In this document: positions 2,625-16,485 of the stretch, piece by piece
How the letters are laid out: each line of letters opens with the position of its first letter
Numbering within the stretch: position 1 is the stretch's first letter
NCBI GenBank assembly: GCA_021399445.1
Contig: JAJTUQ010000002.1
Span: 4,216,001 to 4,280,000, forward strand
Origin: Xylogone sp. PMI_703
Lineage: Eukaryota > Ascomycota > Leotiomycetes
Direction: 5' to 3'
DNA: 64,000 nucleotides
The notes under the pieces: model-generated
The model's database searches: none
Seen by the model: the letters and a program-made list of their open reading frames with translations, nothing else
What the model was told of the DNA's origin: nothing
Program-made: the position numbers and the translations under genes

Positions 2625-2751
2625 TGCCACCTGAGAGAATCGAACTCGCGACCTCATCATTACGAGTGATGCGCTCCTACTTCAAAGTTAGACCCGTATA
2701 CACCTCTCTTTTGGAGGTGGGAATAACTTACTACCACTGAGCTAAGGAGGC
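2625..2751 (-). tRNA. tRNA-Thr(CGT), copy A, with a 55-nt mRNA-type intron in the D-arm
   Basis: Exon 1 is 2751-2732 (20 nt: acceptor strand, box A and D-loop through A21). Exon 2 is 2676-2625 (52 nt: 3' D-stem, anticodon arm, T-arm with box B, 3' acceptor strand, discriminator A). Joined they make a 72-nt cloverleaf. The anticodon stem CATCA/TGATG closes a seven-base loop with anticodon CGT (Thr, reads ACG). The insert at 2731-2677 lies between A21 and G22, not at the usual eukaryotic position 37/38. It begins GTAAGT, ends GTAG and has CTAAC 12 nt before its last base. Two stem mismatches are visible: U4-U69 and C50-U64. A T5 run 8 nt downstream (2613-2617) is a plausible Pol III terminator. 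Whether the RNA is spliced and used cannot be told from sequence. Confidence 0.85.
2677..2731 (-). other. Spliceosomal-type intron inside tRNA-Thr copy A
   Basis: GT-AG insert of 55 nt with 5' GTAAGT, branch-like TCTAAC and 3' GAAGTAG. Its middle can fold: CACCTC pairs with GAGGTG around a 7-nt loop. Its length equals that of the mRNA introns in this window (44-60 nt). Confidence 0.8.
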
Positions 2752-2767
2752 TAATTGGAAGGGTTTT

Positions 2768-2784
2768 TCTTATGGCGATATATA
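2768..2784 (-). promoter_or_regulatory. Conserved upstream element of tRNA copy A
   Basis: A TATATATCGCCATAAGA-like element at about -33 to -17 from the mature 5' end. Similar sequence sits at matching distances before copies B and C. A TATA-like block followed by CATAAGA is shared by all three, although the surrounding bases differ. Confidence 0.55.
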
Positions 2785-2817
2785 CTTGATAAAGCCGGAA
2801 GAAAAATTATAAATGCC

Positions 2818-2823
2818 AAAAAA
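2818..2823 (-). terminator. Probable Pol III terminator of tRNA copy B
   Basis: Six T on the transcribed strand, seven bases past the discriminator base. Confidence 0.6.
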
Positions 2824-2830
2824 GTGAAGT

Positions 2831-2954
2831 TGCCTCCTGAGAGAATTGAACTCGCGACCTCATCATTACTAGTGATGCGCTCCTATTTTCAAGGTTAGAT
2901 ATGAGCCTTTATCTTGAGGCAGAGAGATACTTACTACCACTGAGCTAAGGAGGC
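2831..2954 (-). tRNA. tRNA-Thr(AGT), copy B, with a 52-nt mRNA-type intron in the D-arm
   Basis: Exon 1 is 2954-2935 and exon 2 is 2882-2831; together they form a 72-nt tRNA. The acceptor stem pairs fully (A69 instead of the U of copies A and C). The anticodon stem CATCA/TGATG encloses the AGT anticodon (Thr; A34 would become inosine). The T-arm has the C50-U64 mismatch seen in all three copies and TTCAATT in the T-loop. The insert at 2934-2883 sits between A21 and G22, starts GTAAGTAT, ends AATAG and carries TCTAAC 12 nt before its end. Six T downstream (complement of 2818-2823) suit a Pol III terminator. This copy is tandem to copy A, about 80 bp apart on the same strand. It is the best-paired of the three. 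Confidence 0.87.
2883..2934 (-). other. Spliceosomal-type intron inside tRNA-Thr copy B
   Basis: 52-nt GT-AG insert with GTAAGT donor, TCTAAC branch-like site and AATAG acceptor. The last 17 nt (from TCTAACC to ATAG) are identical to those of copy C, while the 5' two thirds differ. Confidence 0.8.
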
Positions 2955-2970
2955 TTGATGCAAATATATT

Positions 2971-2987
2971 TCTTATGATAATATATG
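2971..2987 (-). promoter_or_regulatory. Conserved upstream element of tRNA copy B
   Basis: CATATATTATCATAAGA at about -33 to -17. It nearly matches the element before copy C (CATATATTGTCATAAGA), although the bases between element and tRNA have diverged. Confidence 0.6.
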
Positions 2988-3864
2988 AGCAGTCAAGCTA
3001 GGAGGGAAAAAAAACCTTTCAAAGGCTCAAAAATAGGCCCGTGCTTCCACATTTACCTCACTATCTAAACCTACAGTTGATACGGTTGACTAATCTGACA
3101 TTCCCCTCCGCCAATTTTGAATTAAATAATTTCGCCTTTTTGAATTATTGCCATGAGCGCCTTGAGCATCCGCTCAAGTAAGGTTTTGGTGAGAACGATA
3201 CATATATTTCTCTTACTATCAATCTATCAATACATTATAAAAATCTAAACTGAGATCTACCTATAAAGAAGCTAAATCTACTCATAGCGATTAAAATCAG
3301 TAGTTAAGCGTTACAGGCTCAGGCGTTACAGGCTTCGCTTACGGGACCTTAGCCTTGTACGTATGCTAAAAGGAGCCAACAACCGTAGGGCGTTGGCGAT
3401 ATAGTACAGCCATACCGTACCCGGAAGCCTGGCATTTCAGGGTTATGATCGAAGTAATCTCGGGTCAGAGAGAGGGTTGTTCCTGGGAGACTGTAAAGAT
3501 TTATTTGCTTTCGATGTTGCATAAAGTCCGTAGGACTTTCAGCATCCTAGCTATTTGTCCTTCTTATGCACTTAGGCATAGATTATAGCTCTAGTCATCA
3601 AGACAAAGCCTATCTACCTGATAGCGGTTCAAATTCACTACTCGATCGCAAACGAAATTTTGCTTATCATGGCCACCCTTACCTACAACATACAACCTTT
3701 ATTACTTGACCTAGTGAATCCGGGTACTTGAAAGCTGTAATCATTACAAATATCTCGCTGTTATTTCTTGTGATCATTTCTAAAACCTCGTGGGGCAACA
3801 CAGCTTTGGCGATAGCTTTGCGATTCTCTCAGCGAACCGAATCCCTCCTAAGGCCTAATGGCCT

Positions 3865-3881
3865 CATATATTGTCATAAGA
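3865..3881 (+). promoter_or_regulatory. Conserved upstream element of tRNA copy C
   Basis: CATATATTGTCATAAGA at about -29 to -13 from the tRNA start, matching the elements before copies A and B in sequence and approximate spacing. Confidence 0.6.
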
Positions 3882-3893
3882 TGTTTCAATCAG

Positions 3894-4021
3894 GCCTCCT
3901 TAGCTCAGTGGTAGTAAGTTTCCCACATTCACAAAATAGGCTTATTTATATATCTAACCTTGAAAATAGGAGCGCATCACTTGTAATGATGAGGTCGCGA
4001 GTTCGATTCTCTCAGGTGGCA
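3894..4021 (+). tRNA. tRNA-Thr(TGT), copy C, with a 56-nt mRNA-type intron in the D-arm
   Basis: Exon 1 is 3894-3913 and exon 2 is 3970-4021 (72 nt joined). The exons are identical to copy A except for base 34, which makes the anticodon TGT (Thr, reads ACA/ACG). It shares the U4-U69 and C50-U64 mismatches with copy A. The insert at 3914-3969 between A21 and G22 has GTAAGT at its 5' end, TCTAAC near the 3' end and ATAG at the end. About 34 nt of 3' flank is nearly the same as that of copy A, so A and C form an inverted duplication. A T6 run at 4029-4034 is a plausible Pol III terminator. Confidence 0.87.
3914..3969 (+). other. Spliceosomal-type intron inside tRNA-Thr copy C
   Basis: 56-nt GT-AG insert. 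The donor, branch-like site and acceptor match copies A and B, whereas the middle is AT-rich and unlike either. Confidence 0.8.
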
Positions 4022-4028
4022 GACTGCA

Positions 4029-4034
4029 TTTTTT
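4029..4034 (+). terminator. Probable Pol III terminator of tRNA copy C
   Basis: Six T starting eight bases after the discriminator base. Confidence 0.6.
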
Positions 4035-16000: not shown

Positions 16001-16485
16001 TCCTTGAACCTTTCTGGAATCCAGTATGTGATGTCTTTTTAGCTAAGATTCGTACAGGTTGCTAACATATCTGTTTTTAGTTCGTTGAAGAACAAGCCAT
16101 TGATCGAGTTCATCGCCTTACGCAGAAAATTGATGTAGTTGTCTACAAAATTACAATCAAGGATTCAGTTGAAGAGCGTATCCTCGACTTACAAGAAAAG
16201 AAGCGGCAATTGGCGAACGAAACTATCGAAGGTGGTAAGCTGGGTGCCGGCAAGCTAGGCATGAATGAGATCCTCCAGCTTTTCAAACGCGATGCAGAAA
16301 GTTCACCCTTGTCACTAGAGAATGTGAGGCTAGCTTCGAAGATGAAACTCTTGAACTCTACCAACCCTGAGGATGATTCAGGGAATGCTTATTCAAGCCG
16401 TGAGACTTCTGTCGCGCGAGAGAGGAAATCTACCCCTCCAGTGAGAACGAAAAAGGAGGATGCAATATTTGGTAGGAGATGGTAA
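13011..16485 (+). CDS. SNF2-family DNA-dependent ATPase (Rad5/Ris1-type helicase)
   Basis: Three exons: 13011-13015, 13083-16023 and 16081-16485, giving 1116 aa. The long frame has no good ATG at its 5' end. A 5-nt first exon (ATGAA) spliced at GTATGT to 13083 restores MKFAPLNTFSQ. SNF2 motifs: Q-like LLPHQVEGVEWM, Walker A DDMGLGKT near residue 372, DEAH near 497, LTGTPMQNN, and helicase C with SQFTSMLDLIEPFL and EPFWNP. Splicing of 16024-16080 adds VEEQAIDRVHRLTQ (motif VI). A Cys cluster (CEICQ near 724, then CSKC) in the insert between the helicase lobes is a reduced RING-like element, as in the Rad5/Ris1/lodestar group. Likely a nuclear chromatin or repair remodeller; the exact orthologue is not assigned. 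Confidence 0.87.

Follow-up and report, generated by a model that had tools for sequence, protein, structure and literature searches.

The window, i.e. the whole 64-kb stretch of DNA under analysis, belongs to an ascomycete of Xylogone, a genus of the Leotiomycetes; two of its proteins matched those of Xylogone sp. PMI_703 at 98 and 100 percent, and the next named relative was Scytalidium lignicola with 87 and 76 percent. The window contains three interrupted tRNA-Thr genes, listed here together with a T run and with a protein-coding intron that served for comparison only.

2625-2751, minus strand: tRNA-Thr(CGT) gene; exon 1 2732-2751, exon 2 2625-2676
2677-2731, minus strand: putative GT-AG intron of Thr-CGT, 55 nt; branch A at 2688
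2831-2954, minus strand: tRNA-Thr(AGT) gene; exon 1 2935-2954, exon 2 2831-2882
2883-2934, minus strand: putative GT-AG intron of Thr-AGT, 52 nt; branch A at 2895
3894-4021, plus strand: tRNA-Thr(TGT) gene; exon 1 3894-3913, exon 2 3970-4021
3914-3969, plus strand: putative GT-AG intron of Thr-TGT, 56 nt; branch A at 3957
4029-4034, plus strand: T6 run resembling a Pol III terminator, beginning 8 nt past the Thr-TGT gene
16024-16080, plus strand: intron of an SNF2 protein-coding gene, 57 nt, GTATGT...GCTAAC...TTTTTAG, located by tblastn (comparison only)

All three genes are interrupted at one and the same site between A21 and G22, as a sequence-only reading of the window had described, and the insert form given there, GTAAGT...TCTAAC...TAG over 52-56 nt, was seen in each of them. 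The same reading had placed the branch A 12-13 nt before the last base; TCTAAC itself is present, while the measured distances were 11, 12 and 12 nt. Removal of the insert leaves the predicted 72-nt tRNA-Thr in all three cases, and ARAGORN named the products cgt, agt and tgt. Downstream T runs also start at +8 in the Thr-CGT and Thr-AGT genes (T6 and T5). The motif GTAAGTN{25,50}CTAACN{5,15}TAG had three matches in the 64-kb window, all of them the Thr inserts, while 100 dinucleotide shuffles of the window averaged 0.06 matches and never gave more than 1. The plain count of intron-like motifs in the window was weakly above that of shuffles.

Standard tools overlooked most of these genes. ARAGORN at standard settings reported no tRNA in the window; when anticodon-loop introns were allowed, it misnamed the three Thr genes as Phe, Ser and Phe. 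Rfam cmscan detected one of the three, and of 11 interrupted tRNA loci submitted unspliced it matched four at E<=0.1. The SNF2 intron was confirmed by P0121, an NCBI protein from this organism that skips 16024-16080. Candidate mRNA introns joining open frames in the window amounted to nine rows (two overlap) of 44-76 nt, six of which start with GTANGT. In their signals the tRNA inserts are similar to these candidate mRNA introns of the host.

An anticodon-arm search for tRNA-Thr, blind to inserts, gave seven matches across the genome: the three window genes, one gene on contig C20, two intronless Thr-AGT genes and one non-tRNA. The gene on C20 (L036) is a fourth interrupted tRNA-Thr with the same kind of intron. 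The intronless Thr-AGT genes are arranged in tandem at C12:4193681 and 4193850, about 25 kb from the window genes on the same contig. The spliced Thr-AGT of the window is identical to them in 72 of 72 positions, which fixes the position of the junction; within the window Thr genes two placements, GT-AG or TA-GG, give an identical mature tRNA. A single T-stem mismatch in Thr-CGT is common to the intronless Thr-AGT genes, and the acceptor stem is mismatched at U4-U69 in both Thr-CGT and Thr-TGT. Because the upstream flanks of the window Thr-CGT gene and the second intronless Thr-AGT gene match (50 of 62 aligned bases identical), the interrupted tandem pair and the intronless pair are probably copies of one array. 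Intact intronless Thr genes for every anticodon had been named in the sequence-only reading as evidence that would speak against it. Such genes exist for AGT (two) and for TGT (two, L004 and L009, which belong to another sequence type); for CGT none was seen among genes of the window genes' sequence type. The window Thr genes are therefore probably not essential by themselves, and the argument for essentiality is based on Pro-AGG instead.

A genome-wide search for similar inserts, proposed along with the sequence-only reading, brought up further genes in Thr and in four other families. The pattern GTAAGT...TAG...B box had 26 matches versus 27 in the reversed control; eight were tRNAs (four Thr, two Arg-TCT, two Pro-AGG) and 18 were not. 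With GTGAG there were 90 matches versus 126 reversed, with one Leu-AAG gene as the new interrupted tRNA; another match merely overlapped an ordinary Gln gene. With GTAAG and a shorter B-box distance at least 110 matches (182 reversed) yielded a second Leu-AAG gene and an Arg-ACG gene interrupted at 31/32. None of seven matches to inserts starting with GTATGT was recognisable as a tRNA from the matched letters. Most of these pattern searches required GT and AG, so the complete inserts described below are partly selected for these signals. Splice signals played no part in the searches that brought up the two Arg-TCT genes (covariance model), the four Thr genes (anticodon arm) and one Pro gene (C1b; T arm). 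The tRNA covariance-model search was incomplete, with 53 matches from 63 scored of 1,824 candidates; its other matches were inspected by eye and with ARAGORN, without individual classification by insert position. The count of inserts is a lower bound, because matches were judged by eye and only named candidates were fetched. The Thr pattern had no match in viral contigs or prokaryotic genome contigs and the Arg and Pro patterns had none in viral contigs; these sets are non-fungal and thus uninformative on relatives.

Including the window, 12 genes carry a total of 13 complete GT-AG inserts, which occupy seven positions: 14/15, 19/20, 21/22, 25/26, 31/32, 32/33 and the variable arm before 48. 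They are 50-58 nt long, all of the form GTRAGY...NTAAY...YAG. Outside the window the tally is one Thr, two Arg-TCT, three Pro-AGG (four inserts), two Leu-AAG and one Arg-ACG gene. Both Arg-TCT genes (L059, L060) carry GTAAGT...TAAC...TAG at 25/26. Pro-AGG on C1 (L066) has a GT-AG intron at 19/20, and the third Pro-AGG gene (C1b) has a diverged one at the same site, GTAAGC...CTAAC...CAG. The Pro-AGG gene on C20 (L081/L092, about 4000601) contains GTGAGT...CTAAC...CAG at 14/15 and GTAAGT...CTAAT...CAG at 32/33; with a further, ordinary intron of 19 nt at 37/38 it appears to have three introns of two kinds. In the two Leu-AAG genes the GT-AG intron separates the variable-arm stem from the T stem, and each gene has a 37/38 intron as well. 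The one complete Arg-ACG gene has its GT-AG intron at 31/32. Two further Arg-ACG copies, C1:6080996 (L102) and C1:6083450 (L103), came from an anticodon search that ignored splice signals (34 matches, three of them Arg-ACG) and bring the count to 15 inserts in 14 genes. Their inserts start with GTAAGT and keep the branch site, and they end in CTG and CCG in place of AG, so as read these copies could not undergo normal splicing; one of the two is also altered in the D loop. The two look like decaying genes or genes with unusual 3' sites. A candidate at C12:7757385 (L095) consists of only the 3' half of an Arg-TCT with no recognisable 5' half and was set aside as a fragment, and another candidate, L101, is not a tRNA.

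Major-class spliceosomal introns have the consensus GTRAGY at the 5' site and, some 10-20 nt upstream of their end, a branch site close to CTRAY. GT at the start and AG at the end were found in 13 of the 15 inserts, the exceptions being the two C1 Arg-ACG copies. The extended 5' site GTRAGY, which the searches partly required, was present in 15 of 15, as was a branch-like NTAAY with its A 10-15 nt from the end (first base C in eight, T in six, G in one). That GTAAGT...CTAAC...TAG occurs by chance within ordinary insertions gains some room from the shortness of the motif and from pattern searches that select for it. Yet three occurrences in the window against 0.06 expected, and the same signals at seven sites, also in copies found without the motif, make coincidence a negligible explanation.

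Paralogous genes allowed us to compare exons and introns. Exons were identical in 72 of 72 positions for Thr-AGT, Arg-TCT and Pro and in 99 of 99 for Leu (37/38 intron counted in), while the corresponding introns were identical in 47/52, 33/57, 39/57 and 31/52 positions. The interiors of the two Arg-TCT introns were no more alike than shuffles. Over five pairs 58 of 60 signal columns (5' site, branch site and AG) were identical versus 127 of 214 elsewhere (Fisher p 2e-9); the test carries some bias, since part of its members came from searches with the 5' and 3' signals.

ARAGORN recognised the expected tRNA in all nine joined sequences tried (three Thr, one Arg-TCT, two Pro, one Leu and two Arg-ACG, one of the latter being an AG-less copy; L103 was left out). 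The anticodon stem of Arg-ACG, which is split by the 31/32 insert, showed a compensatory C-G/T-A difference between genes. Minimum-energy folds of spliced Thr and Arg-TCT gave no full cloverleaf; the intronless Thr-AGT has the same sequence. The B box is intact in 12 of 12 genes, and A-box positions 8-19 are uninterrupted in all of them except the C20 Pro gene. In that gene GTGAGT, the 5' site of the 14/15 intron, may double as the remaining A box. No T run inside the 13 introns exceeds four, and wherever the available sequence reached far enough runs of T5 to T11 begin within 14 nt past the gene end.

These data bear on the possibility that the loci are dead copies, i.e. surplus tRNA genes that took up short introns or intron-like DNA and never lose it by splicing. 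According to a review, short insertions in eukaryotic D- and T-arms mostly affect a single gene among many synonymous ones, and such genes are presumed to be pseudogenes (PMC4090602); the two Arg-ACG copies without AG as well as the intronless Thr copies would fit such an account. It is disfavoured because identical exons with diverged introns (72/72 three times and 99/99) are the opposite of decay. Moreover, downstream T runs and B boxes are retained, and inserts reside in all three Pro-AGG and in both intact Arg-TCT genes found. Exons decayed as in a pseudogene were seen in the Arg-ACG copy L103 and the fragment L095, and not in the four paralogue pairs or the nine joined sequences. We thus consider dead copies improbable and favor removal of the inserts by splicing.

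If so, the question arises whether splicing is compulsory. A T-arm search for Pro-AGG (up to three mismatches) found three genes, all with GT-AG introns. No intronless Pro-AGG turned up in an anticodon-arm search (up to three mismatches; two matches) or in a search for CTTAGG plus B box (15 matches, two of them Pro-AGG). Eukaryotic Pro-AGG tRNA reads CCU and CCC. Because three of three Pro-AGG genes found carry introns, splicing looks compulsory for tRNA-Pro(AGG) as far as this incomplete tRNA inventory goes; a diverged gene or an assembly gap could hide an intronless copy. Arg-TCT, searched with up to three mismatches, is represented by two intact genes, both interrupted, and one fragment, and the sole complete Arg-ACG gene found is interrupted.

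Introns of mRNA type in the U6 snRNA genes of some yeasts had been put forward as a precedent among Pol III RNAs, and this genome's own U6 proved to be interrupted. A U6 search gave four matches from 47 scored of 3,687 candidates, one of which, on C20, was above the Rfam cut-off with 73 bits. It has a 53-nt GT-AG intron at C20:2705895-2705947 (L104:1482-1534), GTAGGT...GCTAAC...TTCTTAG. The gene reads ...GCCTTCGGGCATTTGGTCAATTT, then the intron, then GAAACGATACAGAGAAGATTAGC; the model match begins inside the intron, which sits directly before the GAAACGATACAGAGA core. The exons were read by eye against the U6 sequence. Thus an mRNA-type intron is present in a Pol III gene indispensable to this cell. 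U6 introns of mRNA type also exist in some other fungi. Fission-yeast U6 carries one, according to a published account (PMC10484740). Weaker matches at C21:3523655-3523760, C12:1734791 and C1:6317519 scored 41, 30 and 29 bits, below the cut-off, and are possibly pseudogenes or further interrupted copies.

Self-splicing was rejected, since the catalytic core of group I and group II introns takes a few hundred nt and the 50-58 nt of the 13 complete inserts are too short for it. Another candidate is the tRNA endonuclease, which might cut the inserts as non-canonical introns at bulge-helix-bulge motifs as in some archaea, red algae and nucleomorphs. Such introns are described for several tRNA arms, even beside 37/38 introns (PMC4090602, PMC3978253), and the enzyme is presumably present in this fungus because ordinary anticodon-loop introns abound in its genome by ARAGORN. 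On the other hand, GTRAGY, YAG and the branch-like NTAAY found in all 13 complete inserts are not needed by the endonuclease, and the seven positions all differ from 37/38. None of the 10 complete Thr, Arg-TCT and Pro inserts formed all four central-helix pairs; at most three of four were reached over shifts of -1 to +1. When six precursors were folded by minimum energy, no junction motif shared among them was apparent by eye. Cleavage by the endonuclease is thus quite improbable for these inserts.

Taken together we favor the view that tRNA genes transcribed by Pol III harbour spliceosomal introns of the major class (U2-type) in the form of these inserts, with a probability of about 0.88 as judged from sequence. 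The spliceosomal-type reading gained support from six other positions, four more families, the U6 intron and paralogues whose introns have diverged around identical exons. The sequence itself shows the anatomy of the inserts, their recurrence, the conservation of their signals, the complete tRNA left once they are removed and, within this genome, the precedent of U6. We infer Pol III transcription, actual splicing and the order of splicing of these genes. Pol III would transcribe the tRNA gene straight through the intron; U1/U6 would recognise GTRAGY, and U2 would recognise the branch site, which resembles CTAAC and precedes the intron end by 10-15 nt. The spliceosome would then excise a lariat of 50-58 nt, and the joined exons would be a normal tRNA. 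In the two Leu-AAG genes and one Pro-AGG gene the 37/38 intron would be removed separately by tRNA endonuclease and ligase.

The splicing of tRNAs is conventionally assigned to an enzyme other than the spliceosome. Our search of an open-access library listed no earlier account of tRNA genes with spliceosomal introns, and we know of none. GT-AG introns are known for one Pol III RNA, U6, and for tRNA the mechanism would be new. The U6 introns of fission yeast and others are alike in being GT-AG spliceosomal introns of about 50 nt with a branch site in a Pol III gene. U6 is itself a component of the spliceosome, whereas the new introns occupy seven sites in five tRNA families and, unlike that of U6, sometimes come as two GT-AG introns, or as one GT-AG and one 37/38 intron, per gene. 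Nuclear rDNA of lichen fungi carries spliceosomal introns, likewise in a non-coding RNA gene, but in Pol I transcripts and not in tRNAs. Canonical 37/38 introns, spliced by endonuclease and ligase, also interrupt tRNA genes, some of them the very same genes; the new inserts differ in position and in their GT-AG signals. The ectopic introns of archaea, Cyanidioschyzon and nucleomorphs share a location outside 37/38 and several introns per gene; the review ascribes them to the splicing endonuclease, whereas the inserts described here bear spliceosome signals, and it deems the mechanism for the shortest nucleomorph tRNA introns unknown (PMC4090602).

The data suggest that the spliceosome helps to make the tRNAs of this fungus. 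We regard it as likely that it is a compulsory tRNA-maturation machine here, needed for Pro CCU/CCC and probably for Arg AGA and CGN, with some pre-tRNAs also processed by the endonuclease and with repeated insertion of introns into tRNA and U6 genes. The reach of the spliceosome would then extend beyond U6 to other Pol III transcripts that are very short and highly structured, and translation capacity would be coupled to spliceosome activity. tRNA finders limited to anticodon-loop introns may overlook or misname such genes in other fungi. The description of tRNAscan-SE 2.0 states that archaeal candidates are analysed for non-canonical introns, and this treatment of such introns as archaeal may be why fungal genes of this kind were overlooked (PMC8450103).

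As to the origin of the introns, likeness across families was tested by shuffling among tRNA introns only, and two of 82 pairs reached p<=0.01, one of them being Pro 19/20 versus Pro 14/15. Introner-like elements, near-identical copies of one intron in unrelated genes, get no clear support from these comparisons. The Pro 19/20 and 14/15 introns might be one intron slid by four bases, in which case the independent sites would be six, not seven. Our guess is that the introns arose by reverse splicing into abundant RNAs. Because tandem Thr paralogues with and without an intron lie so close together, intron gain or loss would be tractable to study here; window 2625-2954 and C12:4193681-4193921 provide a natural comparison of intron presence and absence.
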